Shown piece after piece: positions 830 through 25,611 of a stretch of DNA of 64,000 nt. Made by a program: the position numbers and the translations under genes. Origin of the DNA: Tsuneonella litorea (lineage in GTDB: Bacteria > Pseudomonadota > Alphaproteobacteria > Sphingomonadales > Sphingomonadaceae); NCBI RefSeq assembly GCF_025154015.1, contig NZ_JAOAMV010000001.1:186001-250000 (forward strand). Reading direction: 5' to 3'. The notes under the pieces are model-generated. The model was not told the DNA's origin. It saw nothing but the letters and a program-made list of their open reading frames with translations, and searched no databases. Every line of letters begins with the position of its first letter. The stretch's first letter is position 1.

Positions 830-844
830 GACAATTGTTAGACC
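830..844 (-). promoter_or_regulatory. Operator-like motif copy a (GGT-CTA-ACAATTG)
   Basis: On the minus strand this reads GGTCTAACAATTGTC. It lies just downstream of the candidate -10 of the receptor gene, so it would sit over the transcription start. It matches the cluster-wide pattern GGT-N3-ACAATTG seen at 884-898 and 25583-25597. The role as an operator is inferred from position and recurrence. Confidence 0.5.
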
Positions 845-847
845 TAT

Positions 848-876
848 GATTTGCCGCACTCTCAGTGGCGTGTCAA
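848..876 (-). promoter_or_regulatory. Candidate sigma70-like promoter for the TonB receptor
   Basis: Read on the minus strand, TTGACA (871-876) is followed after 17 bases by CAAATC (848-853). The -35 is perfect and the -10 is weak. It points toward the receptor start at 772. The weak -10 suggests activation or another sigma factor, or that the true -10 lies slightly downstream. Confidence 0.35.
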
Positions 877-883
877 TGCTTAC

Positions 884-898
884 GGTAGGACAATTGAC
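884..898 (+). promoter_or_regulatory. Operator-like motif copy b (GGT-AGG-ACAATTG)
   Basis: The sequence GGTAGGACAATTGAC overlaps the -35 hexamer of the promoter for the gene at 956. It matches 12 of 15 bases with the copy at 25583-25597, on the opposite strand. A protein bound here would be expected to repress by blocking the -35. Confidence 0.5.
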
Positions 899-921
899 AT
901 ATTTGGCGATTCCGGTATTTT
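894..921 (+). promoter_or_regulatory. Candidate promoter of the flavin monooxygenase gene
   Basis: TTGACA at 894-899, a 16-base spacer, and TATTTT at 916-921 place a start site near 928. That leaves a leader of about 28 bases before the ATG at 956. The -35 overlaps the operator-like motif. Confidence 0.5.
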
Positions 922-955
922 TCCGGGCACGTCAAAGGGACAGGATCTGAGAAAA

Positions 956-2593
956 ATGGCATATTCCTCGCGCGCAACCGAAGTCGATGCCGTCGTGATC
1001 GGTGCAGGATTTTCGGGACTTTACATGCTCCATCGCCTACGCGAGCAAGGGTACAGCACCCGCGTTTTCGACGCCGCGAAGGGTGTGGGGGGCACCTGGT
1101 ACTGGAACCGGTACCCGGGTGCCCGGTGCGATTCGGAGAGCCACTACTACTGCTATTCGTTCTCGGACGAGATCCGCAACGAGTGGAAGTGGAGCTGTCG
1201 CTACCCCGCGCAACCTGAGATCCTCGACTATCTCAATTTCGTCGCCGATCGGCTAGACCTGAAGAAGGACATCGACTTCAACACGCGGGTGACGGCCGGC
1301 ACCTATGACGAGAGCTTGCATCACTGGACGATCGAAACCGACACTGGCGAATCGGTCCGGGCCAAATTTCTCATTACCGCTGTGGGCAACACGTCCGCCC
1401 CTGCCCGGCCCAATCTTCCGGGGCTGGATACGTTTGCCGGCAAGGTCTATCACACCGCTCTCTGGCCACACGAAGGCGTGGACTTCACCGGCAAGCGGGT
1501 CGGCCTGATCGGGACGGGTTCCAGCGGCATCCAGAGCACCCCGATGATCGCCCAGCAGGCCGATCACCTGACCGTGTTCCAGCGAACCGCGAACTACAGC
1601 GTGCCGGCGAGGAACCACGCCCTGACCGACGAGATGCGGCGCGAGCAGAATGAGAAGTTCGCCGAGCTGCGTGCGCTCACGCTCAATTCACCGATCGGCA
1701 TGCCTTTCGAGCTGCCCGAAAAGTCAGCATTGGAACTGTCGTCGGAAGAGCGAACAGCCATGCTGGACAAGCTATGGGACAAAGGCGGCTTCCGCTTCAT
1801 GTTCACCAGTTTCACCGACATCGTCACCGATCCCGCGGCCAACGAGGTAGTCGCCGGATATATCGAGGACAAGATTCGCAGCACCGTCAACGATCCCGCG
1901 AAGGCCGACGTGCTCTGCGAGTTCAATCACGCGGTCGGGACCAAGCGACCGCCGATCGACACCGAATATTACGAGACCTTTAACCGCGACAACGTCTCGA
2001 TTGTCAGCATCCGGAAGAATCCCATCCGGGAGGTCACGGCAGACGGCCTGACGCTGGAAAACGGCGATCATCACGAACTCGACGCAATCGTCTTCGCGAC
2101 CGGCTTCGACACCGTCACCGGATCAATCCTCAAGCTCAACCTCACGGGTCGCAACGGCCAGACGCTTGCAGACAAGTGGAAGGACGGTCCTCGTGCCTAC
2201 CTCGGACTCGCCTCGGAGGGCTTTCCCAACCTATTCATGATCACTGGTCCACAAAGCCCAGCGATCCTCGTCAATTTTCCCGTCTGCATCGAGAAGCACG
2301 TCGACTGGGTAATCGACGCGATGGAGCACATGAAAAGGACCGGCGCCGTCGAGATGGAAGCTACGGCCCAGGACGAAGCAGCCTGGGTCGAGAAAATCTC
2401 CGCCGACGTGGAAGGAACCCTCATGACGAGCACGGACTCGTGGTACATGAACTCTAACATCCCGGGTAAACCGAAAGTCTTCACTGCCTACTTCCCCGGA
2501 ATGCCTTCCTATTCCGAAATCATCGACGAGGTCGCGGCCAACGGATACCCCGGTTTCAATCTGAGAACGCACGAGACGGCCGAGGCTGCCTGA
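956..2593 (+). CDS. Baeyer-Villiger-type flavin monooxygenase (cyclohexanone monooxygenase-like), 545 aa
   Basis: A cytosolic FAD- and NADPH-dependent type I Baeyer-Villiger monooxygenase that would insert oxygen next to a carbonyl and turn a ketone into an ester or lactone. The FAD Rossmann motif GAGFSG is at residues 16-21. The family signature follows as FAGKVYHTALWPHEG, then a second NADPH-binding GTGSSG, and also GGTWYWNRYPGARCD. Its 545 residues match the cyclohexanone monooxygenase size. The ATG at 956 is preferred over one at 851 because the earlier start would lie upstream of the candidate promoter and adds 35 residues with no family similarity. It is transcribed divergently from the receptor. 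The substrate is unknown. Confidence 0.9.
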   Translation: MAYSSRATEVDAVVIGAGFSGLYMLHRLREQGYSTRVFDAAKGVGGTWYWNRYPGARCDSESHYYCYSFSDEIRNEWKWSCRYPAQPEILDYLNFVADRLDLKKDIDFNTRVTAGTYDESLHHWTIETDTGESVRAKFLITAVGNTSAPARPNLPGLDTFAGKVYHTALWPHEGVDFTGKRVGLIGTGSSGIQSTPMIAQQADHLTVFQRTANYSVPARNHALTDEMRREQNEKFAELRALTLNSPIGMPFELPEKSALELSSEERTAMLDKLWDKGGFRFMFTSFTDIVTDPAANEVVAGYIEDKIRSTVNDPAKADVLCEFNHAVGTKRPPIDTEYYETFNRDNVSIVSIRKNPIREVTADGLTLENGDHHELDAIVFATGFDTVTGSILKLNLTGRNGQTLADKWKDGPRAYLGLASEGFPNLFMITGPQSPAILVNFPVCIEKHVDWVIDAMEHMKRTGAVEMEATAQDEAAWVEKISADVEGTLMTSTDSWYMNSNIPGKPKVFTAYFPGMPSYSEIIDEVAANGYPGFNLRTHETAEAA

Positions 2594-2623
2594 CGACGCC
2601 TCCCCTGGACAAACTTTCCCCTG

Positions 2624-2653
2624 ACGGCCGCGCATTTGCGCGGCCGTTTCTTT
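2624..2653 (+). terminator. Rho-independent terminator after the flavin monooxygenase gene
   Basis: Perfect 10-bp arms ACGGCCGCGC (2624-2633) and GCGCGGCCGT (2638-2647) flank an ATTT loop, and the tail is TTTCTTT. It sits 30 bases after the stop codon at 2593 and ends a single-gene transcript. Confidence 0.85.
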
Positions 2654-2715
2654 GGGTTCGATATTAGATGGTCTGGTAGCCCTCGAGGCCGCGCATCTTT
2701 CGCCTGTGCGATTCC

Positions 2716-5067
2716 TCAGGCGATCACGCCGTCTTCGACGAGTTGCGCGCTTTCGTCAGGAGAGAGGCCGAGCAGGCGCTGAAGCACGCTGTCGTTGTGC
2801 TCACCGATGATCGGACCACGCGTTCCTGTTGCGATCTTAATCCCGCTTATGTTCCACGGGGCGCGGAAGAGCGTTTCACCCCCCAAGCCCGGCAATTCGA
2901 CGACTTCTGCCATTTCGCGCGCGGCGATCTGCACGTCGGCCCACAGCCCATCGATGTCATTGACAGGTGAGGCTGGAACGCCCGCAGCGCGCAGGGAAGA
3001 AACCAGGGCGTCGCGATCATGCTTGACGCTCCACGCCTCGACCATGCGATCCAATTCAGCTCGAGACGCGATACGCGCGTGAGCTGAGGCGAAGCGCTGG
3101 TCTCGCGCCCAGGCCTCCTCGGGCGCGATCGCACAGAGCGCCTGCCAGTCGCGATCGTCCCTTACCGCCAGCGAAAGCCAGCGATCGTCTCCCTTTGCCG
3201 GATAAATGCCGTGTGGAGCCATCCCCGGATGAGAATTGCCGACAGGCTCTGGCTGGTGCCCGTCCAGTTGCGCTTGCAAGGCATAGGGGATCAGCGTGCA
3301 GAAGAGGGCTTCGGTCTGGGACAGGTCGATGTACGCGCCCTTCCCGGTCGCTTCGCGCCGCTCGAGCGCCGCGAACAGGGCGACGAGCGCGTGCACTGCG
3401 GCATTCGGATCGCCGAGCGCGAAATTCAGAGCGCCGGTTGGCTCTTCTCCCGGATAACCGACTAACGATTCGAGCCCCACGAAACTGGACATGGTGGGCG
3501 CATAGGTCCGCATGTCTGACGCCGGACCGAATTGTCCGGCACCCGACATCGCGACCATGATCAACCCCGGATTACCGGCGCTCAGCGTGTCGAATCCGAT
3601 GCCCGACCTTTCGAGCGAACCCGCCGACATGTTCTCCAACACCACGTCGCTGCTTGCTGCGAGCTGTCGGAGCAAGTCGACCGCGATCGGCTCCTTGAGA
3701 TTGAGCGTGATGCCCATCTTGCCCTTGTTGATCTGATGGAACATCGGCGACATATCCATCGTCTGCCCCTCGATCCGTTCTCCGTCGCGGATGATTACAC
3801 CGGACAGGCGCGAATTGTCGGGGCGCTTGCGGTGCTCGATCTTGATTACCTCGGCTCCGAACTGGGCGAGCATGCTGCCGACTTGCGGAGCGGACCAGAC
3901 CCAACCGAGATCGAGCACGCGCAATCCAGCCAGCGGCAGGTCGTCAGTCTCCTGGCGCGGTGAACCGACACAACTCAGCAGTGAACGAGCTTCGTTGGGG
4001 GCCTGTGACTCTCCGCGCGCTTGCGCGACGCGAAACGGCAAACCCGTTGCTGTCAGATTTCTGTCGCCGTGTGTCCACGAGCGCAGGAAATCGCGATGGG
4101 CGAATTGCGGTGTATCGAGAACCTCGGCTAGATCCCGCAACGGGGCGATGGTGAGGCGGAATCGGTCCGCTATCTCCTCGATCTCGGCTTTGGTGTGTTT
4201 AGCAAGCCATGGCTGGATCAGCGCGTCGACCTCCTCCGGATACTCCTGCCCCATCGCGCGCAATCGCTGGTATCGCGGTTCCTTCGTCCATTCGGGCGTC
4301 CCCATCGCCTCGACAAAGCGCTCCCATTCCGGACGCGTCCGCCCTGACAGGCAGACCGCTCCGTCCGCACAAGGGAGGATCACAAAGGGATAGGCGCCGC
4401 CGGATTGCGCGGCGCGGCGCCCTTCTCGCCGCCATTCCATTCCGTGATGGATATAGAAACGGCAATTCACCCCGACGTAATGGGCGAGCACATCAATGAG
4501 AGCGATGTCAACGACCCGCCCGCCGTCAGGTCGAGGGCCCGCCCTCCTCGCCAAAAGGCTGGCCGCCGCGAGGTGAGCGCCCGCCTGACATTCCAGGACG
4601 CCCGGAGGAATGGCGAGCGGGGGCCTTCCCTGTTCACCGAGCGCCCAGGACACCGACGCCTGGACTTGTGCGTCCAGCGGCACCGCAGCTGTCTTGGCCA
4701 AGGGGCCAGTCAGCCCGAAAACCGTCGATACCGCAACGACCGTTCCTGGGTGGAGCGCCACGAATCCCTCAGGTGATGCGCCCAGTATGGCAGTGAACAG
4801 GGTCGTGTCGTCCGAGATGACGATGTCGGCATTTTCCACAGCTTCGGAGATGTCGGCAGGGTCTAAGGGTTCTTTCCCTGCGGCGTAGTAGGCCAGCCCG
4901 AGAGTGATCGCGTCGCTCGGCCTACCTGCCGAGCGCCCTTTGGGGTCTTCGGCAGGCAAGCGGATGACGCGCGCGCCCATTTCGGACAGCAACCATCCGC
5001 AATAGGCACCCGCAACACCGCTGGAGATCTCGACGACGCGAAGCGGCTCACCTGGCACTTCGTTCAT
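2716..5067 (-). CDS. Tandem two-domain family III CoA-transferase (CaiB/BaiF), 783 aa
   Basis: Family III CoA-transferases move CoA between carboxylic acids. Most are about 400 residues, and this protein holds two copies. Domain 1 covers about residues 1-365 and domain 2 about 378-783. Domain 2 has the canonical opening GLRVLDLGWVWSAP and an aspartate at D553 in the position of the catalytic Asp (context LGDPNAAVHA). In domain 1 the equivalent position appears to be Glu159 (context VLECQAGAH), so that half may be inactive or structural. The ATG overlaps the TGA of the upstream CoA-transferase gene by 4 bp, so translation is probably coupled. It likely activates an acid intermediate of the local pathway. 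Confidence 0.88.
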   Translation of the reverse strand: MNEVPGEPLRVVEISSGVAGAYCGWLLSEMGARVIRLPAEDPKGRSAGRPSDAITLGLAYYAAGKEPLDPADISEAVENADIVISDDTTLFTAILGASPEGFVALHPGTVVAVSTVFGLTGPLAKTAAVPLDAQVQASVSWALGEQGRPPLAIPPGVLECQAGAHLAAASLLARRAGPRPDGGRVVDIALIDVLAHYVGVNCRFYIHHGMEWRREGRRAAQSGGAYPFVILPCADGAVCLSGRTRPEWERFVEAMGTPEWTKEPRYQRLRAMGQEYPEEVDALIQPWLAKHTKAEIEEIADRFRLTIAPLRDLAEVLDTPQFAHRDFLRSWTHGDRNLTATGLPFRVAQARGESQAPNEARSLLSCVGSPRQETDDLPLAGLRVLDLGWVWSAPQVGSMLAQFGAEVIKIEHRKRPDNSRLSGVIIRDGERIEGQTMDMSPMFHQINKGKMGITLNLKEPIAVDLLRQLAASSDVVLENMSAGSLERSGIGFDTLSAGNPGLIMVAMSGAGQFGPASDMRTYAPTMSSFVGLESLVGYPGEEPTGALNFALGDPNAAVHALVALFAALERREATGKGAYIDLSQTEALFCTLIPYALQAQLDGHQPEPVGNSHPGMAPHGIYPAKGDDRWLSLAVRDDRDWQALCAIAPEEAWARDQRFASAHARIASRAELDRMVEAWSVKHDRDALVSSLRAAGVPASPVNDIDGLWADVQIAAREMAEVVELPGLGGETLFRAPWNISGIKIATGTRGPIIGEHNDSVLQRLLGLSPDESAQLVEDGVIA

Positions 5068-6299
5068 CGCTCAACGCTCCGGCTTGCGGCGATCGACGCC
5101 GTCCCCTCGCCGACGATCTTCCTAATCTCTTCTTCATCGACGCCGCATTCGCGCAGGACCTCGAGAGTATGTTCGCCCAATCGAGGTGCGGGGCTTGCAA
5201 AGGGAACCGATTCCCCGTCGACCGCCCACGGCAGCCTGACATGCGGCACGCCGTCGAGCTCCAGGAACGTCCCGCGCTCGAGCGCGGCCTCGGATGCCAC
5301 GGCTTCTTCGAGGCCTGCGACCGGAGTAGCCGGAACGCCTCCGTCGTGAAGTCGCCCGACCCAAGTCGCAACGTCTGCTCCGGCTAGCGCCCGCCCGATT
5401 TCCACCGTCAATTCGGCATTGTTCCGGCTGCGATCGGCGACAGTGAGGAAACGGGGGTCCGCAACAAGTTCCTCGATGCCGATGACCTTGGCTACGCGTT
5501 CCCAAAGGCGCTGGTTCGGGGCGGCGATCATAAGATTGCCGTCGCGTGCGGGATAGACTTCGTAAGGTGCGGCGATCGGATTGCCCGAACCTGCTCTTGC
5601 CGGCCGCTTGCCCGACATCTTGGCCGCAGTCGCCTGGTAGGCGACGAGACTGAATGCGGTATCAACCAGCGCCGTTTCCATGCCCCGGATTTGCTGGCCA
5701 CGCTGCTTTGCGAGGACTGCGGCAAGAACCCCCATTGCCACCCATTGCCCGGTACCAAGGTCAACGACCGAAGGCGCGCAGCGCACCGGCGGCGCACCAT
5801 CGTGCCCGTTCATCATCATGATGCCCGTATACGCCTGCACAAGTGGGTCGTAGCCCGGGAGGCCGCTCCCGACGGGCCCCGCACCGAAGGCGTTGAGCGC
5901 ATAATAGAGGATATCGGGATTAACGGCACGCACGGCATCTTCGCCGATTCCAATCCGCTCCGCGACGCCGGGCCGCATGCTTTGAAGCAAGACGTCCGAC
6001 CGCGCGGCTAGCGTCAGCGCAGCTTTGCGTCCGCTTTCGGTTCCGAGGTCGAGAACGATCCCGCGCTTGCCCGCGTTCATGTGTCGATAGGCGATTCCGG
6101 TACCGTCGACTTCGGGAGGCCATGCTCGGGCATCGTCACCCGAAGGCGCCTCCACCTTGATCACATCCGCGCCAAGCTGGGCGAGAATCATCGTCGCAAA
6201 GGGACCCGCCATGTTTGACGAGAAATCAAGGATCCTGACACCCTCCAGCGGTGCGAACGTGCCGCTCCCATCCCCGCTTTCCTCGTCCACTTTTTTCAT
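5064..6299 (-). CDS. Family III CoA-transferase (CaiB/BaiF), 411 aa
   Basis: A single-domain family III CoA-transferase. The N-terminus LEGVRILDFSSNMAGPFATM and the segment LGADVIKVEAPSGDDAR are typical. The likely catalytic aspartate is D180 (context SVVDLGTGQW). The start is ATG 6299, giving MKKVDEES; a much longer upstream frame runs into the divergent gene and is not needed. It is first in a two-gene operon with the double-domain transferase at 2716-5067. It may form a hetero-oligomer with that protein, which would explain the degenerate half there. The acid substrate is unknown. Confidence 0.9.
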   Translation of the reverse strand: MKKVDEESGDGSGTFAPLEGVRILDFSSNMAGPFATMILAQLGADVIKVEAPSGDDARAWPPEVDGTGIAYRHMNAGKRGIVLDLGTESGRKAALTLAARSDVLLQSMRPGVAERIGIGEDAVRAVNPDILYYALNAFGAGPVGSGLPGYDPLVQAYTGIMMMNGHDGAPPVRCAPSVVDLGTGQWVAMGVLAAVLAKQRGQQIRGMETALVDTAFSLVAYQATAAKMSGKRPARAGSGNPIAAPYEVYPARDGNLMIAAPNQRLWERVAKVIGIEELVADPRFLTVADRSRNNAELTVEIGRALAGADVATWVGRLHDGGVPATPVAGLEEAVASEAALERGTFLELDGVPHVRLPWAVDGESVPFASPAPRLGEHTLEVLRECGVDEEEIRKIVGEGTASIAASRSVER

Positions 6300-6325
6300 G
6301 AATTGCCCTAGCAAGCTTGAATATC

Positions 6326-6338
6326 CTAATGTAGGACC
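6326..6338 (-). promoter_or_regulatory. Operator-like motif copy c (degenerate, GGT-CCT-ACATTAG)
   Basis: It lies in the 83-bp divergent gap between the CoA-transferase start (6299) and the ligase start (6383). The minus strand reads GGTCCTACATTAG, and the surrounding TCCTA-ATG-TAGGA (6324-6336) is an inverted repeat. It shares GGT-N3-ACA and the preceding CTAT with the better copies. Confidence 0.35.
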
Positions 6339-6382
6339 ATAGAAGGGCTGGCGAACCGATACAAGGGCAAAGGGCAATATAA

Positions 6383-8035
6383 ATGCAAACGATCGGCGCC
6401 CCTCGGGTTGCGAGCATCCGGCCAGTGGAATGGACGTTCGTCGAGGTATGGCAAACGGTCGCGGAACATGTTCCGGACCGACTCGCGCTGGCCCATGGCG
6501 ACGTCGCTTTGGACTGGAGCTGCTTCGATCGTCGCGCGGCCGGCATTGCATCGTCGCTGCTAAAAGCGGGGCTGCACCCGCAAGAGAAGGTCGCCCTCTA
6601 CCTCCATAACTCGCCCGCCTACATGGAAAGCGTCTATGCCAGCTTGAAGGCGCGTCTGGTCCCGGTAAACACCAATTACCGCTACACTGGCGACGAACTG
6701 GTACAGCTCTGGACGGATGCCGACGCCGTCGCAGTGATCTTCCACGGCGCTTTCGCCGAACAGGCCGACGCTGTGCGCGCGCGGTGTCCAGACATCAAGC
6801 TGTGGTTGTTCGTCGATGATGGGAAGAGCGCATGTCCGGTCTGGGCACAGCCTTACGAAGAAGCTGCGCAGCATCCTGACGAGGTTCGCGGCATTGTCGG
6901 TGCTCCGTCTGGCGACGATCAGATGCTGATCTACACCGGCGGAACGACGGGGCTTCCGCGTGGCGTGATGTGGCGCCAGCACGATCTCTATCTCGCGTCG
7001 AACGCGACCGGCGATCCCGACGTAGCCGACTATGATCACGTCCGCCGACGGCTCGAAGCGAACGCCCCGCCGGTGGGTTTGCCCGCCGCGCCGCTCATGC
7101 ACGGAACCGGATTCGTTTTCGCTGCGACCATCCTCAATCGCGGGGGAACGGTGGTGACCCTGCCGGGTATTTCGTTCGACGTCGAAGTCCTGCTCGACAC
7201 CATCGTCGCCCATGGCGTGACGGACCTCTGCATTGTGGGCGACGCATTCTGCCGCCCGATCGTCGACGCGCTCGACCGCGAACCGGGTCGCTGGAATCTC
7301 GGTCATCTGCGGGTAGTGTCGTCTTCCGGGATGGCATGGAGCGCCAGCGTGAAGGAGCGGGTACTGGTTCACGCGCCTTCCGCTCTGCTCATCGATTTTC
7401 TTAATTCGAGCGAGGCGAGCGGCATGGGCCGCTCATTGACTTCCAACCGGAAGAAGGCAGGCGGCGCGCGCTTCCAGCTCGGGAAAAATGCCTGCGTCAT
7501 TGATGACTCCGGCAACCCTCTCAAACCCGGCGATCCGAACCCCGGGCGTTTGGCGGTGCGCGGTCATATCCCGCTCGGGTATTACAAGGACCCCGTGAAG
7601 ACCGCCGCGACCTTCCCGGTCGTCGACGGCGTGCGCTATTCGATACCCGGTGACCTCGCGACGGTGGACTCAGACGGCGCCATCACCTTGCTCGGCCGTG
7701 GATCCACCTCGATCAACACGGGCGGAGAGAAGGTGTTTCCCGAGGAAGTCGAGGAGGCGATCGCAACGTGGCCGGGCGTTTACGATTCGCTGGTCGTCGG
7801 GGTTCCGCATGAGCGCTTCGGCCAAATGGTCGCCGCGATTGTCGCGAGCGAGCACGGTGATAATCTCGACATCGAGGGCTTGCGGGACCACCTGCGTAAG
7901 AGGTTGGCAGGGCACAAAATCCCTCGCGCGATCATGCCGGTCGAGTCGATTGGCCGGGGTCCGAATGGGAAGGCCGACCGGCCCGGGATTACGGCGCGAG
8001 TAATCGCGTGGCTCGAAACGGAGAACGCGACATGA
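6383..8035 (+). CDS. Acyl-CoA synthetase / AMP-dependent ligase, 550 aa
   Basis: Activates a carboxylic acid with ATP to an acyl-AMP and then to the CoA thioester. The phosphate-binding motif YTGGTTGLPRGV spans residues 184-195. Near the C-terminus STSINTGGEKVFPEEVEE and GPNGKADR give the hinge/C-terminal signature, including the catalytic lysine of PNGK. The length of 550 is standard. It is the first gene of an operon with the enoyl-CoA hydratase, whose ATG overlaps this stop by 4 bp, and the alcohol dehydrogenase. It diverges from the CoA-transferase operon across a gap holding an operator-like motif. Confidence 0.92.
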   Translation: MQTIGAPRVASIRPVEWTFVEVWQTVAEHVPDRLALAHGDVALDWSCFDRRAAGIASSLLKAGLHPQEKVALYLHNSPAYMESVYASLKARLVPVNTNYRYTGDELVQLWTDADAVAVIFHGAFAEQADAVRARCPDIKLWLFVDDGKSACPVWAQPYEEAAQHPDEVRGIVGAPSGDDQMLIYTGGTTGLPRGVMWRQHDLYLASNATGDPDVADYDHVRRRLEANAPPVGLPAAPLMHGTGFVFAATILNRGGTVVTLPGISFDVEVLLDTIVAHGVTDLCIVGDAFCRPIVDALDREPGRWNLGHLRVVSSSGMAWSASVKERVLVHAPSALLIDFLNSSEASGMGRSLTSNRKKAGGARFQLGKNACVIDDSGNPLKPGDPNPGRLAVRGHIPLGYYKDPVKTAATFPVVDGVRYSIPGDLATVDSDGAITLLGRGSTSINTGGEKVFPEEVEEAIATWPGVYDSLVVGVPHERFGQMVAAIVASEHGDNLDIEGLRDHLRKRLAGHKIPRAIMPVESIGRGPNGKADRPGITARVIAWLETENAT

Positions 8036-8850
8036 CCGCCAGCGAACCGCATGTGATCTTCAAGAAGCAGGATGGGATCGCCTACATCACGCTCAACAGG
8101 CCGGAAAAGCGCAATGCCTTCTCCCCGGAAATGCTGGTGCGCCTTTGCGACATTTGGCGCGACGTAGCCGCCGACAATTCCATCCGTGTCGCCCTAGTGA
8201 CCGGTGCCGGGAACCAAGCGTTCTCGTCAGGCGGCGATCTCGGTAGCGTCATCCCGCTGATGATGCGTACCCGCGAACCGGTGGGCGAATGGGAGGAACG
8301 GTTTTCGAGCGACCGGCGACAACTGTATCGCGCGATCCTGCGCGGGACGGAATTCTTCAAGCCGGTGGTCTCGGCGATCAACGGCCATGCACTCGCCGGG
8401 GGCGCGGAATTCGTACTCGCCACCGATATTCGCGTCATGGCCGAGACTGCCACGATTGGCGTGACCGAAGTGCGCCGCGGGCTGATAGCCGGGGGTGGAT
8501 CGCTGGTCCGGCTTGCGCGGCAGGTCCCCTGGGCGACCGCGATGGAACTCGCATTGGTGGGCGAACCGCTGACCGCCGCGCACGCGTTGGCGACGGGACT
8601 CGTGAACCGGGTCGTCTCGCAAGACCAGGTGCTCCCGATGGCCGAGGAACTGGCGCGCAAGATCAGCTTGGGCGCCCCCGTCGCACTCGCCAAAACCAAG
8701 GAAGCGATGGTTCGGTCGAACGGGCTGCCGTTCGACGAGGCGTTCAAGATTGAAGCGCAATGCACCAAGGACAACGCTGCTACCGCCGACGCGAAAGAAG
8801 GTCCCCGCGCATTTATGGAAAAGCGGCCCCCGGTCTACACGGGACAGTGA
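8032..8850 (+). CDS. Enoyl-CoA hydratase/isomerase family protein, 272 aa
   Basis: A crotonase-fold enzyme likely to hydrate an enoyl-CoA made by the local pathway. Oxyanion-hole segments are NQAFSSGGDL (residues 61-70) and INGHALAGGAEF. The two acidic positions used in hydratases appear as E126 and E146. The start is ATG 8032, overlapping the stop of the ligase as ATGA; an in-frame ATG at 8008 would lie inside the ligase gene. It could also be an isomerase or a ring-opening crotonase, since the fold is functionally broad. Confidence 0.9.
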   Translation: MTASEPHVIFKKQDGIAYITLNRPEKRNAFSPEMLVRLCDIWRDVAADNSIRVALVTGAGNQAFSSGGDLGSVIPLMMRTREPVGEWEERFSSDRRQLYRAILRGTEFFKPVVSAINGHALAGGAEFVLATDIRVMAETATIGVTEVRRGLIAGGGSLVRLARQVPWATAMELALVGEPLTAAHALATGLVNRVVSQDQVLPMAEELARKISLGAPVALAKTKEAMVRSNGLPFDEAFKIEAQCTKDNAATADAKEGPRAFMEKRPPVYTGQ

Positions 8851-8863
8851 GAGAGGAAGCGTT

Positions 8864-9913: not shown

Positions 9914-9920
9914 TTGAAGA

Positions 9921-9950: not shown

Positions 9951-9959
9951 GTTCCGATG

Positions 9960-13726: not shown

Positions 13727-13738
13727 TTCGCGATCCTC

Positions 13739-15865: not shown

Positions 15866-15891
15866 GCGACTCTCCCACGCAGTATTTTAAT

Positions 15892-15906
15892 GGTCCAATA
15901 ATTAAA
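15892..15906 (+). promoter_or_regulatory. Operator-like motif copy d (degenerate, GGT-CCA-ATAATTA)
   Basis: It lies 27-41 bases upstream of the ATG at 15865. The plus strand reads GGTCCAATAATTAAA, and TTTAAT/ATTAAA arms around it form an inverted repeat. It is a weaker match to GGT-N3-ACAATTG, but again sits directly at an operon head. Confidence 0.35.
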
Positions 15907-15977
15907 CATTGGAACTTTGCTGCCCACGTGTCAAGCATCTGGACGGCATCCCGAAGGATCGGGCGAGACCCCGAATG

Positions 15978-18245: not shown

Positions 18246-20350
18246 TGTTTGCCTCCCACGGTCAAGACCACGCTTCCGGTATCGTGGATCGCCGCACTGT
18301 CGCCAGGGGCGACAAGAATGGTCGTGTCGGGAAATTCCAGGATCGCCGGCCCCTCGGCGCTCCACCCACGCCGCAACCGGGTGCCTTCGAAGATCGGCGT
18401 GGATTGCATGCCGGTGGCCCATCGCACGTCACGCTCGCGCTTGCCTGGAAAGTCCGCACCCGCGTCCCCCATCTCCACATTCTCGATGGCGACGTCGCTC
18501 ATAGGGCCGTGACCGCGCACTTCGAGGCTCGTCAGCTGCATTCCGGCAGCGGAATAGCCGCTGCCCTGCCCGAACAATCGCTCGTATTCCGCTTCGAAAA
18601 CCGCGACCATGCGCTCGACCCCACCGGCATCGTAATCCCCGCCTTCGACCGAGACCGCCACCTGGTTGGTCTGCAGAGCGTAGCGCAATTCCGCATGGTG
18701 GGAGAGTTCGATATCCTCGAGCGCGATGCCCTGGTTGGCAAGTTTGTCGAGCACACGCGCTTCGAGCCGGCGCCACTGTTCGTTGATGATGTCCGGATCG
18801 AACGGACTGGCCATGCTCATGCCCGCGCTTTCGTTGACGAGCGCATCCGAAGCGGCGATGCCGAAGGCCGACCATCCAGCAGCTAGGTCACTGAGCGGGA
18901 CGACGGCGGTGTGAATTCCTAGTTCGCGCGCGATCTCCCCGGCGTGCAGCCCGCCGCCCCCTCCGAAGCCGTAAAGCACGAAGTCACGCGCGTCGTAGCC
19001 TTGCTGGGTCAGGGTCAACCAGATCGCGTCCGCCATCTGGGCGTTGACGATGCGCATCGCAGATGCCGCCGCCTCCTCCGCACTCATGCCGAACGTCGCC
19101 CCAAGTTCCGAAAGAGCCTCGCGAGCGGGATCGATCGCAAGACGGATGCGCCCGCCGAAGAAATAGTCCGGATCGTAGTATCCGAGCAGGGCAGCGGCAT
19201 CGGTGACCGTGGGCAGCCTTCCTCCGCGCCCGAAGCAGATCGGTCCGGGATTGGCCGCCGCGCTGTCGGGACCGACCTTGAGCGCATTGTCGCCCGCGCG
19301 AATGATGCTGCCGCCGCCCGAACCGACCGAGCGGACGTCGAGTGTGGAGACAAAGTATTCGAACTGACCGTGGCTCGCCGTCGGACGCCTTATTGGCACC
19401 CCGTGGTGGATCGTTCCGATGTCGAGTGTCGTCCCTCCCACGTCCGCGGTCACGACGTTGGTGCTGCCGCCGACCTTGCTGAGCGAAAGGTTCGTCGCAC
19501 CGATCAGGCCGGCAACCGGTCCCGACCCGATCGTCAGAACGGGCAGCGAGCGGGCTAGGTCGGAATCGATCAGCCCGCCTGCGCACGACATGATCTGCAG
19601 CTTGCCCGAAAAACCGTTCGCTGCGAGGTCGCCCTCCAGCGCTTCGAGGTAATGCCGCATCGGCGGACCGATCATCGCGTTGATAACCGTGGCCACGGTG
19701 CGCTCGTATTCTCCCACTCGCGCGCTGACTTCCGATGAAATCGACACGAACAGGTTCGGCGCTATCTCGTTCACGAGATCGCGCAATCGACGCTCGTGCG
19801 AGGGATTCGCGGTCGACCAGATCAGGGAGATCGCGATTGCCTCGACGCCTTTGTCGACCAGCCGCACGATCGCTTCGCGAGCAAGGTCTTCGTTGAGATC
19901 GACGACCGCAGCCCCGTCGAAGGCGACACGCTCGTCGATTTCCTCGCACAACGCTCGCGGCACCAATGGCTCGGGCTTCGTCTGTTTTGCAACATGCGCA
20001 ATGTATTGCGAGGGCATCCACTTCAGCCGCGCCCCCGAGCGCATGATGAAGGTCGCATCGATGTGACCGCGGGTGGAGAGAAGGCCGACCCGCGCCGTCT
20101 TACCCTCCACCAGCGCGTTGGTCCCGACGGTGCAACCATGAAAAACACGTGCAGAACGGAGCAGCGCCTGCAGGGTGAGGTCGTGCCCCCGTGCTCCGGC
20201 TTCCAGCGCATGAAGGAAACCGGTCTGGAAGTCGGGCGGTGTCGAACTTGCCTTGCCGATTTCGACCGCGACGCCATTCTCGGCGGCCGTATCGAGCACT
20301 ACGCAGTCGGTGAAGGTTCCACCGATGTCGACTCCTACTATGTATTGCAA
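18242..20350 (-). CDS. Acetone-carboxylase-like beta subunit (HyuA family), copy 2, 702 aa
   Basis: The partner of the alpha-gamma protein encoded directly downstream. Motifs are DIGGTFTDC at the N-terminus, DVGGTTLDIG and LYGFGGGGGLH. The start is TTG at 20350: the frame reads TTG CAA TAC ATA GTA, and GGAAAGG lies 8 bases upstream, while no ATG is available near the conserved N-terminus. Only 74 bp separate it from the end of the MaoC operon on the same strand, so some read-through is possible. An operator-like box nevertheless lies in the gap. Confidence 0.86.
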   Translation of the reverse strand: MQYIVGVDIGGTFTDCVVLDTAAENGVAVEIGKASSTPPDFQTGFLHALEAGARGHDLTLQALLRSARVFHGCTVGTNALVEGKTARVGLLSTRGHIDATFIMRSGARLKWMPSQYIAHVAKQTKPEPLVPRALCEEIDERVAFDGAAVVDLNEDLAREAIVRLVDKGVEAIAISLIWSTANPSHERRLRDLVNEIAPNLFVSISSEVSARVGEYERTVATVINAMIGPPMRHYLEALEGDLAANGFSGKLQIMSCAGGLIDSDLARSLPVLTIGSGPVAGLIGATNLSLSKVGGSTNVVTADVGGTTLDIGTIHHGVPIRRPTASHGQFEYFVSTLDVRSVGSGGGSIIRAGDNALKVGPDSAAANPGPICFGRGGRLPTVTDAAALLGYYDPDYFFGGRIRLAIDPAREALSELGATFGMSAEEAAASAMRIVNAQMADAIWLTLTQQGYDARDFVLYGFGGGGGLHAGEIARELGIHTAVVPLSDLAAGWSAFGIAASDALVNESAGMSMASPFDPDIINEQWRRLEARVLDKLANQGIALEDIELSHHAELRYALQTNQVAVSVEGGDYDAGGVERMVAVFEAEYERLFGQGSGYSAAGMQLTSLEVRGHGPMSDVAIENVEMGDAGADFPGKRERDVRWATGMQSTPIFEGTRLRRGWSAEGPAILEFPDTTILVAPGDSAAIHDTGSVVLTVGGKQ

Positions 20351-20358
20351 TTAGAAGA

Positions 20359-20370
20359 CCTTTCCCGACC
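20359..20370 (-). promoter_or_regulatory. Operator-like half-motif copy e (CATAGGTC)
   Basis: The minus strand reads CATAGGTCGGG just upstream of the TTG start at 20350. Its left half CATAGGTC is identical to that of copy a (830-844), but the ACAATTG half is missing. A TATAAC that could serve as a -10 lies immediately upstream (20374-20379). Weakest of the set. Confidence 0.25.
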
Positions 20371-20424
20371 TATGTTATATTCCGCAAAAGCTTGAGTCGT
20401 GACCGGTGCAACCGGAAAAGACCA

Positions 20425-21564
20425 TCAGCTCGTGCTCGATTTGCGCGGCAGGATCACCGCCGCCTGCCCCTTGGCCGTGACCTCGCCCAATTGGTTCTGC
20501 ACCCAGACCTCCAGGTCGATAAGACCGCTCCCGTCTTCGACCCGCTTGTCCATGATCTGCGCGCGGCACCACGACACGTCGCCGAAGATGTTGGGCCGCC
20601 GGATGCTGACATTGAGGCGGCGTAGGAAGCCGTCGTCGCCCATCCAGTTAGTCATCAACTGGCCCATCCAGGAGATGCGTTGCGGGCCCACGTCGTATCC
20701 GCCCGGCATTCCGACATCGCGCGCCATCTTGCTTTCGGTGTGCCCACGTGCGGCGCTGTCTTGCGCGCCCGTCTCGGCATTTCGAAATGCATCGGCGGGA
20801 TGCCGCTTGCGGTGCATGACCGCGCGGCGGTGCGCTTGGTAGCTGTGCCCGCCGCCGGAGTACCAACAGATCATGTCGGTTATTGTCAGGGGGCCCTTGA
20901 GCATCGGCTGCAGTTCGGAGCCAACCTGGACATCCTCCCAGAACCGGGGCGCACTTCCACGCAATTCCTCGGTTTCGATGGCGAAGGCGATCTCTGCCAA
21001 TTCCTCGTCGGTATAGCTGTAAGTGGCGCGCGGCTTGTATTTGAGGCCGCCGCTGGCCTTACCGCGCGCCGTACGCGCCGTGCTGCCGTGGGCTCGGCAG
21101 ACCAATTTGCCCTCCTGGTTGGTGTAATTCGTTTCGCCCGTCTGGATGATGAATCTGGGTGCATTGCGCCCTTCCTTCTCGACCGCGTCCAGCAGCTTTG
21201 CCGTAACGGTGAAGCTATCCCGATGGCGGATCGGCTCGAACCATTCGAAATCCGTCCCGCCGTAAAGCCACTGGATACCCCGGAGCTTGGGGGCCACGAC
21301 GGTTGTGTCGATGGTATATAGAAAACATCCCGGCGCGAGTGCGCTGCCATGGCGTGACCGCCGGCCGTATGCGGGATCGGTGAACAGCGGATTGTCGTCG
21401 CCTATCCCCCAGCAGAATTGGCGAACGGCGTCGGGAGACGCTTCGGTGTTCCATTGTTGTCCGGTGCGCCGCAGCTCGACGCCGATCAGTTCGCGCGCTT
21501 CCTCCAGCGCGCCGGGCCACAGGGCCGGCGTCTGATTCTCATCCAAAGACCTGCTCTCGCTCAC
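20425..21564 (-). CDS. MaoC / FAS1-like double hot-dog hydratase, 379 aa
   Basis: A two-hot-dog protein of the acyl dehydratase group. The N-terminal half holds a FAS1-like dehydratase domain (QFCWGIGDDNPLFTDPAYG, ALAPGCFLY). The C-terminal half has a second hot-dog (PLTITDMICWYSGGGH to the end). It would add or remove water from a CoA thioester. The start is a GTG at 21564 overlapping the preceding stop as GTGA. A longer frame to 21666 lies entirely within the upstream gene. It is last of a four-gene operon with the ligase, thiolase and second hot-dog protein, and the two hot-dog proteins may work as a pair. Confidence 0.8.
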   Translation of the reverse strand: MSESRSLDENQTPALWPGALEEARELIGVELRRTGQQWNTEASPDAVRQFCWGIGDDNPLFTDPAYGRRSRHGSALAPGCFLYTIDTTVVAPKLRGIQWLYGGTDFEWFEPIRHRDSFTVTAKLLDAVEKEGRNAPRFIIQTGETNYTNQEGKLVCRAHGSTARTARGKASGGLKYKPRATYSYTDEELAEIAFAIETEELRGSAPRFWEDVQVGSELQPMLKGPLTITDMICWYSGGGHSYQAHRRAVMHRKRHPADAFRNAETGAQDSAARGHTESKMARDVGMPGGYDVGPQRISWMGQLMTNWMGDDGFLRRLNVSIRRPNIFGDVSWCRAQIMDKRVEDGSGLIDLEVWVQNQLGEVTAKGQAAVILPRKSSTS

Positions 21565-22418
21565 CACGCAGTCGCCTCGATCGCAAGGGCTCCGTTCGCA
21601 TCGCGGGCAGAAAGCGCGAAGCAATCGCCCTGTTTCGAGATCGACAGATATACTGGTGACCCGCAATAGATCGGCCCCCGGTTCCGACTGTCGAGGCCGG
21701 CCGGCTCGCGGCCGGCGTATTCGCGGAACATCTCCAGCAGGACCATCTGAGGCAGGCTGCCATTGACCACCAGTGCGGGATAGCCCTCGACCAAGGTCGC
21801 GTATGGGTGGTCGTAATGGATGCGATGCGGGTTGTCGGTGATCGCGGAATAGCGAAACAGCATTTCTTCCGTAGCCAGAAAGGTCCGCATAAGGGCATTC
21901 TCTGGAACATCATGTGTCGTGTCGATCGTTTGTGGGATTTCGAGCGGTTTCACACGGGCGGCCCCCTCAGTACTTGGACGAAGGACATATCTGACCGTCT
22001 CGGTGAGCACCTGCTGTCCGCTGTTTTCGAGCGTAATGACGTGCTCGACCTCCACGAGCGCAAATGAGCCCGAACGACCATTCTTCCGGACAACAGAACC
22101 GAGCGTGCTTCGTCGAACGACGGAGGCGCCGATGGGGATGTCACCCAGAAAAGCGATTTTCCTGCCTCCCATCATCAATCGGGGAAGCCCCAGGTCCGGC
22201 ATGTCGAAACCCAGTTCGGCCGCGCCATCGTGCCGCAGGCGGCTCTGCGATGTGGGCGGATTGAACATCAGGACGTGCCAGCCGCGTGGGAGGGGATCTC
22301 CTTGGGCCAGAGCTACGGACGGGCGATCGAGAAGCGCCGCCATGCGGCGTGCCAAGGTGAGCGAGCAGATGTCGTCCGCAACCTTGGCGAGCGAAGTAAC
22401 GGCCGCCTCCATGGTCAT
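21561..22418 (-). CDS. MaoC-like hydratase (mesaconyl-C4-CoA hydratase/HTD2-like), 285 aa
   Basis: A hot-dog-fold hydratase. The segment RYSAITDNPHRIHYDHPYA is characteristic of the HTD2/mesaconyl-C4-CoA hydratase-like group, with the Asp/His pair used in hydration. FAS1-like N-terminal features are present. The start is ATG 22418 overlapping the thiolase stop as ATGA; an ATG 6 bases downstream is an alternative. It likely hydrates an alpha,beta-unsaturated acyl-CoA in the same degradation sequence as its neighbours. The exact substrate is unclear. Confidence 0.82.
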   Translation of the reverse strand: MTMEAAVTSLAKVADDICSLTLARRMAALLDRPSVALAQGDPLPRGWHVLMFNPPTSQSRLRHDGAAELGFDMPDLGLPRLMMGGRKIAFLGDIPIGASVVRRSTLGSVVRKNGRSGSFALVEVEHVITLENSGQQVLTETVRYVLRPSTEGAARVKPLEIPQTIDTTHDVPENALMRTFLATEEMLFRYSAITDNPHRIHYDHPYATLVEGYPALVVNGSLPQMVLLEMFREYAGREPAGLDSRNRGPIYCGSPVYLSISKQGDCFALSARDANGALAIEATAW

Positions 22419-23878
22419 GCCACCAATAGTCCGCCAGCGGCTTTGACCGTGCGTCCCGCCCACTCGTCGGTTTCGAGCGAGCGGATCACTTCCGGTTGCT
22501 CGCACTTTATCAGCGCGCGCCGGCCGGGTGAGGTATCGATCAGCAGTACTGCGACTGGATCCAAGCCGCGTGCATGCACGACCGTGGAGCCGACTACCTT
22601 CCCCTCCCCGGCGAAGTCTATCGCGACTTCGACCTGCTCACTGCGCGCCGCGACGTCAGCCGTCACGTCAAGCCGCGCGAAGCCGCGTGTAGGCGGCTCC
22701 GCCGACCACAAGGCAAAAGCCTGCTTGGTCATGATCCCAGAGACGCAGGACAAAAGCGTCGTTTTCCCACCCCCTGCCCTCAACAGTTCCGCGGCCTTCG
22801 CCGTCGCCTGGAAAAAGTAGTTGTTGTAGGGACCGCCCGCGAACGGCATTCCGCCCGTGATTGTCAGGTCCCGTCCTTTCGGCACCCGCGCGGCCTCCGC
22901 GAAGCACTCGACCGCGACCGGGAAACAAGAATACAGTTCGAACAAGTCAATCTGTTCGGGGGATATCCCTGACTCGCGGAACAGGGCTTCTGCCGCCACT
23001 TCGGCACCGATGCAGCGGCCCGGATCCTTACGCGCCGAGAGCGCAACCATGTGATTGGATTCAACGCTGACGACCGGATAGACGCGGCGCGCCGGCTCGA
23101 TTCCCAGAGCGTCGGCCCTGTCCTCAGAGCATAGCAAGAGGGCGGCCGCCTGATCCACGTTCCAGGTGGAGCAATGCAACCGCGTGTAGGGAAAGGCCTG
23201 CATCGGATTGCGCGGGCCCGGTTCGCTTATCTCGCGTGGGCTCTTCTGGTCTCGAATCCAGGCGTCGGGATTGTTGGCAGCGATGGCGGAGAACCGGGCA
23301 TACATCTCCCCCAGGTGTTCGCGATGCGCTTCGATGCCGCGCCGCAGCGCGGCCCGGCGCGCACTGTCGGCGAGCGCGTAAAGACCTACGGGCATCTGCA
23401 TCCCTGCTGCCACTTCGGCCTCGTGGCGCAGTTCTTCGGCCGGCTCGAGGAGGATATCGGGATCGTCTTCTTGCGCGCGTTCCACCGCGAACTTGCCGGC
23501 AATCTTCGCCCGCAGAATGCGAAAGCCCGCGTCGGCGCCGGCCACGATGGCGCTGTCGATCCGGCCATCGGCAATGTCTTCGCAGGCGCGGGCAATCAGC
23601 GATTGCTGCAGTACGCCCACCGTCGAAAGAACGGTCTCAGCCCCACCGGCGCCGATTGCCGCGGCGATCGCGCCGGACGGGTTGCGGTAGCGCCAGCGAC
23701 CGCGAGGCACCGCTATCCGGCCGACCTCGCGGAGCAATTCAGGCTTCCCGCAGTCGGCGCCCGCCGCACGTGTCGCCTCGATCATCAGGTCGAGCGGCTC
23801 GAGCGCCTTGGTGTAATCCTCCTCGCGTCGCGTTGCGATGCCTACCCCGACGAGCACCGGGACACGGCGCCCGGTCAT
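22415..23878 (-). CDS. Thiolase-like protein (SCP-x/acetyl-CoA acetyltransferase family), 487 aa
   Basis: A thiolase-fold protein expected to cleave a beta-ketoacyl-CoA. Family segments are HCSTWNVDQAAALLLCS, ESNHMVALSARKD, DLFELYSCFPVAVECF and TITGGMPFAGGPYNN, and the C-terminus looks like an extra OB-type domain. In the region where thiolases carry the nucleophilic Cys, it reads STVGVLQQSL without a cysteine, as in some SCP2-thiolase relatives. It may therefore use a different mechanism (for example retro-aldol) or need a partner. It is the second gene of the ligase operon and overlaps both neighbours by 4 bp. Confidence 0.82.
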   Translation of the reverse strand: MTGRRVPVLVGVGIATRREEDYTKALEPLDLMIEATRAAGADCGKPELLREVGRIAVPRGRWRYRNPSGAIAAAIGAGGAETVLSTVGVLQQSLIARACEDIADGRIDSAIVAGADAGFRILRAKIAGKFAVERAQEDDPDILLEPAEELRHEAEVAAGMQMPVGLYALADSARRAALRRGIEAHREHLGEMYARFSAIAANNPDAWIRDQKSPREISEPGPRNPMQAFPYTRLHCSTWNVDQAAALLLCSEDRADALGIEPARRVYPVVSVESNHMVALSARKDPGRCIGAEVAAEALFRESGISPEQIDLFELYSCFPVAVECFAEAARVPKGRDLTITGGMPFAGGPYNNYFFQATAKAAELLRAGGGKTTLLSCVSGIMTKQAFALWSAEPPTRGFARLDVTADVAARSEQVEVAIDFAGEGKVVGSTVVHARGLDPVAVLLIDTSPGRRALIKCEQPEVIRSLETDEWAGRTVKAAGGLLVA

Positions 23879-25458
23879 GCGTCTGCTTCCAGACGCTGCG
23901 TCGCGGGAAGTGCCAATGCACGATCGCGCAAGGGCGCCTTCTGGATCTTGCCGTTCGCGTTGCGTGGCAACGGATCACACTCGACCTTGACAACGGCAGG
24001 GACCTTGTAATCCGACAGGCGCGCTGCACACCATTCGCGAACCGCCCGATCCGTGATGCTGCAGTCAGGATTGGAGACGAAAGCGATGACCTCCTCGTCG
24101 AGCAGCGGATCTGGCCTTCCGACCACCGCAACCTCGGTCACCCCAGTCATCGCTGTAATGACGTTCTCTACTTCCGCAGGATAGACCTTGAAGCCGCCCC
24201 GGATAATCATGTCTTTCTTACGATCGGCGATGCGAACATAGCCGTCGGCATCGACGCTGCCGATATCGCCCGACCGCCAATAGCCTCCCTCGAATGCCTT
24301 CTTTGTGGCCTCAGGGCTTCTCCAGTAACCGGGGGACACCATTGGCCCCGCGATCCAGAATTCGCCGTTTTCGCCGGCGGGAACCTCGCGACCGGCCTCG
24401 TCCATCACCCGGATGTCGCCGCACGCTACCACGCGGCCAATGCTGTCCGCGTGTGTCGTTCCTTCGCCCGGCGGCATGATCGTGGCAGGAGAGGTGGTTT
24501 CCGTCGCCCCGTATGCGTTGCACATCGCAAGGTCGGGGAAAGCCTGAGCGAACCGCTCGATCGTGGCTTCCGGCATGGGAGCGCCGCCGTAGGCTGCGAT
24601 CCGCCAACTCGCGAGCTTGAAGTCGGCCAAATCCGGCTCAAGGAGCAATAGCCCGTACATCGCCGGAACCATCAGGGCGTGGGTAATTGCGTGGTCCCTT
24701 GCAAGTCGAAGCGCCTCGTGGCGGTTAAACTCGGGCATCATCACCAGTTTTGCCCCTTGGAAGAGGAACGGCATCAGGACGCCACACAGTCCGCTTACAT
24801 GGGCCCAGGGGACGCAGAACAGCGTCGCCTCATTGTCTCCGAGATCAAATGCCTCGCGCCAATGCATGCATGAATGGACTACGCCGAGATGGGACAGCAT
24901 CGCGCCCTTCGGCCTTCCAGTGGTCCCCGACGTGTAAAGCAGGGCAAAGGTGGCTTCTTCCCGGATATCGCCAATGATAGGGGCCATGGCGCCCGCAGCC
25001 AGCGCCGCACGCCAGTCGGCCCTGCTCACATCCAGACGGCAGCGCGGCAATCCCTCGGCCTTTTCCAACTCAGACGTGAATTCCGGGCCGTGAATGACGG
25101 CGGAAGGCTCAGCATCGGCAAAGAAGTGCGATAGCTCCCCAGCGCGCGAGCGCGTCCCGAGTGCCACCAACACCGCGCCGAGCCGCACGATTGCAACAAC
25201 GGCACGTACCGCGTCGGCACCGTTATTGAGCATGACCGCAACCCGGTCACCTTGACCCACCCCGGCGTTCGCGAGCCAGTTGGCGAGCGAGGCAGATTCG
25301 CTATCGAGCCGACCGTAAGTAAGTTCCTCGCCGTTCTCGACGACTGCCACAGCGGAAGCATTCGCTGCCATGATGGCAGCCAAGCGCTGCCAGACGTTGG
25401 CGGGCCGGTCCGCGTAGCAGCGCATGATGCGGCCGAAATGCGCTTCCTTCCTTTGCAT
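23875..25458 (-). CDS. Acyl-CoA ligase (AMP-forming), 527 aa
   Basis: The second AMP-dependent ligase of the cluster. The phosphate-binding loop LLYTSGTTGRPKGAM is at about residues 173-187. NAYGATETTSPA is the adenine region. The end has DMIIRGGFKVYPAEVE and RNANGKIQKAPL with the catalytic lysine. ATG 25458 is preceded by AAGGGAAACG. It heads an operon with the thiolase and two hydratases, so it probably loads CoA onto the acid (perhaps the beta-keto acid from a carboxylase) that those enzymes then degrade. Confidence 0.92.
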   Translation of the reverse strand: MQRKEAHFGRIMRCYADRPANVWQRLAAIMAANASAVAVVENGEELTYGRLDSESASLANWLANAGVGQGDRVAVMLNNGADAVRAVVAIVRLGAVLVALGTRSRAGELSHFFADAEPSAVIHGPEFTSELEKAEGLPRCRLDVSRADWRAALAAGAMAPIIGDIREEATFALLYTSGTTGRPKGAMLSHLGVVHSCMHWREAFDLGDNEATLFCVPWAHVSGLCGVLMPFLFQGAKLVMMPEFNRHEALRLARDHAITHALMVPAMYGLLLLEPDLADFKLASWRIAAYGGAPMPEATIERFAQAFPDLAMCNAYGATETTSPATIMPPGEGTTHADSIGRVVACGDIRVMDEAGREVPAGENGEFWIAGPMVSPGYWRSPEATKKAFEGGYWRSGDIGSVDADGYVRIADRKKDMIIRGGFKVYPAEVENVITAMTGVTEVAVVGRPDPLLDEEVIAFVSNPDCSITDRAVREWCAARLSDYKVPAVVKVECDPLPRNANGKIQKAPLRDRALALPATQRLEADA

Positions 25459-25582
25459 CGTTTCCCTTGTCCGACTCTCGGCCCGATCCTTGCGCGCTTC
25501 AAACCCGCCTTCCGGTCAGGCAACCGGGCTAATTGACGATGCCTCGACCGGAGTAGCGTTAATATTGATTGGCCCTAGACAT

Positions 25583-25597
25583 GTCAATTGTTTTACC
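25583..25597 (-). promoter_or_regulatory. Operator-like motif copy f (GGT-AAA-ACAATTG)
   Basis: It lies between the divergent ligase (25458) and CoA-transferase (25612) genes. The minus strand reads GGTAAAACAATTGAC. Together with its flanks it agrees with copy b at 884-898 over a longer stretch, TAyGGTArrACAATTGACAT. It sits 15-29 bases before the CoA-transferase start. Confidence 0.5.
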
Positions 25598-25611
25598 ATA
25601 GAAAACGAGAG

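Follow-up and report, generated by a model that had tools for sequence, protein, structure and literature searches.

The 64,000-nucleotide stretch of Tsuneonella litorea DNA analysed here (the window; positions 186,001 to 250,000 of contig NZ_JAOAMV010000001.1, starting at C11:186001 in our numbering) contains a catabolic gene cluster in which one short motif, GGT-N3-ACAATTG, recurs upstream of several operons, and it raises the question of which protein reads these copies, and to what effect. An earlier interpretation made from the letters of the window (the sequence-only reading) took the motif for the operator of one shared regulator, probably a repressor, with some copies lying over a -35 box. 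We find that the cluster passes the left edge of the window and that a gene for a GntR/FCD-type regulator is encoded immediately beyond it, with two motif copies in its promoter gap; the motif is the predicted operator of this regulator, a reading to which we give a probability of roughly 0.88. What we see is most likely an ordinary, well-supported local regulon of the GntR/FadR type on a little-known ketone-degrading cluster. A likely regulator, seven predicted operators and the members of the regulon can now be named for a rare catabolic cluster (found in 3 of 396 sampled genomes of the order), and the co-regulated gene set offers a working definition of the pathway.

Copies of the motif and their chance expectation

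A pattern scan of the window found exact copies of GGTNNNACAATTG at 832-844 (minus), 884-896 (plus) and 25585-25597 (minus), where the sequence-only reading had reported its three strong copies, and no further exact one. Simulations with first- to third-order Markov models yielded on average 0.025-0.065 exact copies in 64 kb; none of 600 simulated windows contained three. When two mismatches were allowed, the enrichment was lost (19 matches seen in the window against 26.6 expected), and TGGTNNNACMATTG with two mismatches occurred 372 times in the genome against 517 for the reversed control. Because two-mismatch matching showed no enrichment, the weaker copies cannot be judged by matching alone, and the counting of loose matches was dropped as a test of them, its counts being below expectation or control.

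The genome as a whole (3.03 Mb) was scanned by pattern and has eight exact copies of GGTNNNACAATTG, four of which fall within 28.3 kb (C11:183298-211597), one of them a little outside the left edge of the window; the binomial probability of this clustering is about 5e-7, the span having been defined by the matches. The four copies outside the cluster (C1:10548, C31:45689, C22:215876 and C30:133424) score 16.0, 11.2, 5.7 and 8.2 with the matrix described below, and each falls in a frame free of stops over 285 codons or more, weak evidence for coding. Ten relatives of the genus that have no match to the regulator at E up to 1e-20 carry seven copies in total of the pattern GGTNNNACMATTGA, compared with five in this genome, three of them in the cluster. 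The genome-wide background check envisaged by the sequence-only reading, carried out here by pattern, accordingly leaves few exact copies outside the cluster (four of eight), near the level in relatives without the regulator. The C1 copy (G000:C1:10547-10560; L003:2048-2061) sits within a 395-codon stop-free frame and is unexplained.

The regulator gene and its probable assignment to the motif

The regulator gene (C11:183389-184174, plus strand) lies left of the window, from 2.6 kb before its edge, between a TonB-dependent receptor gene and the operon of a B12-dependent mutase. Its product matches an N-terminal GntR winged helix-turn-helix (HTH; PF00392, E 3.3e-16, 59.1 bits against a cut-off of 27) and a C-terminal all-helical FCD ligand domain (PF07729, E 4.7e-21, 75.9 bits against a cut-off of 24.3). 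It scored below the cut-off of all 25 NCBIfam models listed, the best being NanR (102.8 of the required 260 bits) and PdhR (97.2 of 330), so that these models place it in none of the named GntR groups PdhR, LldR, GlcC, NanR and FadR. The sequence-only reading had seen no regulator gene in the cluster and had concluded that the regulator must be encoded outside it; as regards the cluster this is wrong, and the gene was missed because the window edge cuts the cluster in two. The 129-bp gap between the regulator gene and the divergent mutase operon, 2.7 kb left of the window and upstream of the GntR gene, holds two sites 20 bp apart: O1 (C11:183274-183290), a palindrome CTATGGT-CAA-ACCATAG with perfect 7-bp arms, and O2 (C11:183298-183313), an exact copy of the motif, GGTCTAACAATTGAC.

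The motif agrees in form with what such a regulator would be expected to bind. In a study of the FadR subfamily (PMC4494728), the operator is given as TKGT/ACMA, most members having 3 nt between GT and AC, and a preference for G/C beside GT is ascribed to Arg, Ser and Gly at HTH positions 28, 40 and 59, respectively. With the numbering described there (FadR Ser-7 = 0) and an offset of 20 between our regulator and E. coli FadR (1hw1), and assuming an ungapped HTH, these positions correspond to R55, S67 and G86 of the regulator; TGGT/ACCA is therefore expected, and O1 shows exactly that. The consensus of 15 sites from orthologous clusters, CTATGGTCCAACAATTGACTTG, fits TKGT-N3-ACMA in full, as do two of the seven own sites, O1 (TGGTCAAACCA) and O7 (TGGTAAAACAA). 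The full motif can be written as about YTATGGT-N3-ACMATTG/ACCATAR, i.e., a FadR-type palindrome (TGGT-N3-ACCA).

The regulator also keeps company with the cluster. Among the matches listed, with at most six and at most two candidates per genome scored, respectively, the regulator (E up to 1e-40) and the fused CaiB-type CoA transferase of the cluster (E up to 1e-200) had the same distribution, both being found in three of the 396 genomes sampled in the order (the present one included), and eight other genomes of the same genus among the 396 had neither. The motif was assigned to the GntR/FCD regulator because it lies in the regulator's own gap, because consensus and recognition residues fit, and because of this co-occurrence with the fused CaiB. 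Among nine loci with more distant regulators (34-44% identical), four had matrix matches of 17-26 (L018, L019, L026 and L027), with the match upstream of the regulator in both L018 and L019, which are near relatives of each other.

Conservation in homologous clusters

Three other clusters were compared, namely those of G098 (a Caenibius metagenome-assembled genome; L023, L032 and L030), G292 (L024, L035 and L036) and G368 (L037-L040); G099 has a contig identical to that of G292, and the two were counted once. One ortholog search listed only matches above 45% identity, and the searches for the mutase, HydA1, HydB1 and the fused CaiB were repeated without this filter. The three regulators are 83, 83 and 69-70% identical to that of T. 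litorea, in the order given, and the aligned DNA blocks of the G098 and G292 clusters are 67-76% identical.

The alignment of homologous clusters had been suggested as a check by the sequence-only reading, and the sites are indeed kept in every gap that could be read. The regulator gap carries two copies in G098, two in G292 and one in G368, and the paired sites in the clusters with two copies are 20, 22 and 22 bp apart. The gap between the receptor and Baeyer-Villiger monooxygenase 1 contains two copies in each of the four clusters, at a distance of 45-52 bp; the copy between CaiB and acyl-CoA ligase 1 is present in G292 and G368 (this gap of G098 being outside the stretches compared), and that between ligase 2 and CaiB3 in G292 and G098. 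In G368, where the 67 kb covered gave no match to the mutase at E up to 1e-5, the regulator adjoins CaiB3 instead of the mutase, and the motif is found in the regulator/CaiB3 gap. Summed over four gaps with three genomes each, 92 of the 104 motif columns were identical as compared with 141 of the 433 other columns, the motif columns having been marked after the alignments were seen.

An additional copy occurs in G292 (site 3720) before a metallo-beta-lactamase-fold gene (L035:2739-3773), possibly a lactonase; G098 has a copy at the same place, and the T. litorea cluster has none there.

The individual candidate operators

A matrix was trained on the 15 sites of the three other clusters and on none of the own sites, and was applied to 80 kb of the T. 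litorea genome. The training sites were chosen by the pattern GGTNNNAC[AC]ATTG, which derives from the motif of the sequence-only reading; a sixteenth match, on contig C61 of G098, had no visible link to the cluster and was excluded. The six best matches in the 80 kb were all in the cluster: O7 (34.4), O4 (31.0), O2 (29.0), O3 (19.0) and the palindrome O1 in both orientations (17.8 and 17.3), followed by 13.7 at position 48377. The expected numbers of matches per 80 kb at scores of 34.4, 31.0 and 19.0 are 0.00, 0.00 and 0.03, respectively.

Within the window, O3 (832..848, minus) precedes the receptor gene (GTG at 772, minus) and would cover the start site of a promoter TTGACA(876)-N19-AATCAT(851). 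O4 (880..899, plus) precedes the gene of Baeyer-Villiger monooxygenase 1 (start at 956), and its right half overlaps the -35 hexamer TTGACA at 894-899, the -10 being TATTTT at 916-921. O7 (25582..25601, minus) lies in the divergent gap between the acyl-CoA ligase 2 operon (minus) and the operon of CaiB3, Baeyer-Villiger monooxygenase 2 and an APH-like kinase (plus), where TTGACA (25587-25582) and TATTAA (25564-25559) form a -35/-10 pair for the minus operon.

The three weak copies of the sequence-only reading, named there by positions 6326, 15892 and 20359, fared differently. The first, O5 (6326..6342, CTAATGT-AGG-ACCATAG), is in the divergent gap between CaiB (minus) and acyl-CoA ligase 1 (plus); its score of 9.8, with 2.6 matches expected in 80 kb, is not significant by itself, but the sequence CTAATGTAGGACCATAG is identical in T. 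litorea, G292 and G368 (17 of 17 columns, as against 20 of the 74 others in this gap), and this conservation argues that O5 is a real site. The second, O6 (15888..15904, TAATGGT-CCA-ATAATTA), precedes the operon of HydA1, HydB1 and an aldehyde dehydrogenase (GTG at 15865, minus); it scores 8.0 (5.5 expected in 80 kb), again not significant by score alone, and is probably real given its counterpart at the same place in G368, CTAATTGTAGGACCATA, in a comparison of two genomes. The third candidate (20348..20370, minus) was rejected: its best score is 1.3, it lies where 74 bp separate MaoC-like 1 from HydA2, two genes on the same strand, and it has no counterpart for comparison. HydA2-HydB2 then form, in our reading, the end of the ligase 2 operon. 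The gap of the MFS gene (29831-30288) has no site either, with a best score of 5.9. The claim that the motif stands before all seven operons and the receptor gene is thereby narrowed to the receptor and six of the seven operons, served by four gaps in the window, and is extended by the regulator/mutase gap outside it.

Promoter geometry and a proposed mechanism

Of the 17 GGTNNNACMATTGA sites found in the four clusters, 12 have a TA that begins 16 or 17 nt after the TTGA-- hexamer, against a mean of 2.3 in shuffles (p 0.0002); the spacing was chosen after inspection, and related sites are not independent. The promoter of Baeyer-Villiger monooxygenase 1 reads TTGACA-N16-TATTTT and that of the ligase 2 operon TTGACA-N17-TATTAA, so that the right half-site, ACAATTGAC, probably doubles as half-site and -35. 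At the receptor (spacer of 19) and HydA1 (spacer of 15 or 18), the TTGACA precedes the operator, which would lie over the expected start; O1 and O5 keep the ACCATAG half, without TTGAC. The merger of the right half-site with the -35, together with the coverage of start sites, favours repression by promoter occlusion, and the earlier proposal of one shared, probably repressing regulator is thus supported by both phylogenetic footprinting and promoter geometry.

We propose that a dimer of the regulator would bind each copy, and that many promoter gaps have the right half-site fused with the -35 hexamer (ACAA-TTGAC[A/T]), so that the bound protein would block RNA polymerase; at the receptor and HydA1 promoters it would cover the start site instead. 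Cooperative, autoregulated control of both divergent units may result from the paired sites of the regulator/mutase gap, which are 20-22 bp apart. Double sites at constant spacing are read as cooperative in PMC4494728, and the paired regulator-gap sites resemble that class. A pathway intermediate that occupies the FCD domain, probably a carboxylate or a CoA ester, would act as inducer; its binding would release the regulator and switch on in concert the receptor, monooxygenases, CoA transferases, ligases, carboxylase-like enzymes and mutase.

Evidence against the assignment and alternative explanations

Several observations weigh against the assignment or the proposed mode of action. Five of the seven own sites deviate from TKGT-N3-ACMA at one position (O2, O3 and O4 at the first T, O5 at the last A and O6 in the C of AC), and five of the nine distant-regulator loci (L020, L021, L022, L025 and L028) had no convincing site. 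The outside copy at C1:10548, with its score of 16.0, comes near the weakest of the six top cluster matches (17.3), and the ortholog sites are not statistically independent. As to the promoters, the consensus matching had no background control, for O2 no good -10 is seen at 16-18 nt, and at the receptor a spacer of 19 nt has to be assumed. Sites embedded in promoters could also serve an activator, although the overlap with -35 and start speaks otherwise.

This last point leads to the alternative that survives best, namely that the sites serve an activator, or a regulator with mixed activation and repression. E. coli FadR reportedly activates some promoters and represses others, and the double sites in the receptor/monooxygenase gap, 45-52 bp apart in all four clusters, would allow for mixed effects; nonetheless, a right half-site that coincides with a -35-like box in many promoters, and a site that coincides with the expected start in two, form the geometry of a repressor, and we consider this alternative unlikely. 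It is less likely still that the sites are bound by a different regulator encoded elsewhere while the adjacent GntR protein controls something else. The genome does have other regulators, e.g., one of LacI type 11-12 kb further left, but the motif fits the FadR-subfamily consensus and the recognition residues, is present, in each of the four clusters, in the gap that holds the promoter of the regulator gene, and the regulator is confined to the same sampled genomes as the fused CaiB. A strong promoter element common to these genes, TTGACA preceded by an AT-rich part, with no operator function would account for the hexamer and the TA 16-17 nt downstream at 12 of 17 sites; it would not account for O1 and O5, which are palindromic without TTGAC (O5 being invariant in three genomes), nor for the conservation of GGT-N3-AC outside the -35 and the concentration of copies in the cluster, and is very improbable. 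Chance recurrence in AT-rich gaps, in line as it is with the lack of enrichment at two mismatches, has a negligible probability in view of three exact copies against about 0.05 expected and their conservation across three other clusters, which refutes it for O1-O5 and O7, with O6 resting on one other genome. The predicted operator of the GntR/FCD regulator remains the preferred interpretation.

Genes of the cluster and the pathway

The receptor gene (1..772, minus, continuing to the left) has 829 codons including the stop and no inner stop, and its product matches the Plug (3.4e-15) and beta-barrel (1.9e-36) domains. It is followed by the gene of Baeyer-Villiger monooxygenase 1 (956..2593, plus), whose nearest solved relatives are steroid and phenylacetone monooxygenase, and by CaiB and fused CaiB-CaiB class III CoA transferases (2716..6299, minus); the product of 2716-5067 is a CoA transferase with two CaiB domains in one chain. 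Next come acyl-CoA ligase 1, an enoyl-CoA hydratase-like and a zinc alcohol dehydrogenase-like gene (6383..9913, plus); aldehyde dehydrogenase, HydB1 and HydA1, the latter two an acetone/acetophenone-carboxylase-like pair (9960..15865, minus); HydB2, HydA2, two dehydratase-like genes (PF13452, MaoC-like), a thiolase-like gene and acyl-CoA ligase 2, read as one operon (15978..25458, minus); and CaiB3, Baeyer-Villiger monooxygenase 2 and the APH-like kinase (25612..29831, plus). The two monooxygenases (956-2593 and 27042-28682) belong to different subgroups (steroid/phenylacetone monooxygenase-like and 5mq6/PtlE-like) in one likely regulon, 5mq6 being the nearest solved relative of the second. 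Both acyl-CoA ligases are of the AMP-forming type. The HydA/HydB pairs (11432-15865 and 15978-20350) are paralogous, and their HydB proteins carry a tail that resembles acetone carboxylase gamma; a single pair, closer to the first own pair, is present in the G368 stretch, and the 31.6-kb contig of G292 has no HydA/HydB at E up to 1e-5.

Left of the window, the mutase operon (L001:9368-13259, minus), divergent from the regulator gene, encodes the large subunit of an acyl-CoA mutase, a B12-binding small subunit, MeaB and a short-chain dehydrogenase; the nearest solved relative of the large subunit is 2-hydroxyisobutyryl-CoA mutase (4r3u, 2.1e-109), a likeness to which the presence of a B12-binding small subunit and MeaB in the same operon corresponds. 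As a guess, the substrate could be a branched or alicyclic ketone. No publication on this cluster or regulator was found by title and abstract start, in a search that covered few subscription journals. It is a tentative idea, somewhat short of even odds, that a dedicated GntR/FCD switch governs an undescribed pathway for branched or alicyclic ketones and that its operators evolved by merger of half-site and -35, one sequence being read by both RNA polymerase and repressor.

Comparison with known systems

In local regulons of the FadR subfamily such as those of PdhR, LldR and GlcC, the regulators likewise combine a GntR HTH with an FCD domain and bind a TKGT/ACMA palindrome with 3-nt spacing, and the motif likewise occurs in the divergent regulator gap, with double sites at near-constant spacing. 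The present system differs from the PdhR/LldR/GlcC type in standing over a little-known ketone/CoA-ester cluster and in a right half-site fused to a -35-like box. FCD regulators on plasmids of Rhodococcus and Mycobacterium (L026, L027 and L028) are 40-44% identical to ours. In L026 and L027 the regulator is beside genes of acyl-CoA dehydrogenase, thiolase and HMG-CoA lyase, and L028 has CaiB-type CoA transferases nearby. In L026 a matrix match (18.5) falls in a gap of 65 bp before an enoyl-CoA hydratase gene; L027 has one (13.5) about 30 bp before the regulator, and its best (25.9) about 140 nt inside an annotated hypothetical gene. All three loci differ from the T. litorea cluster in that no Baeyer-Villiger monooxygenase or acetone-type carboxylase is annotated in the stretches shown, as judged by annotation only, with no further search.

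Two neighbouring regions are of a different kind. The segment at 35265-48129 of the window encodes a type ISP restriction-modification-like methylase, a 1012-aa RelA/SpoT-domain protein and a serine recombinase, and looks like a mobile or defence region. Left of the cluster, a DNA methylase with a ParB-like N-terminus (L001:5261-6571) may mark mobile DNA as well.

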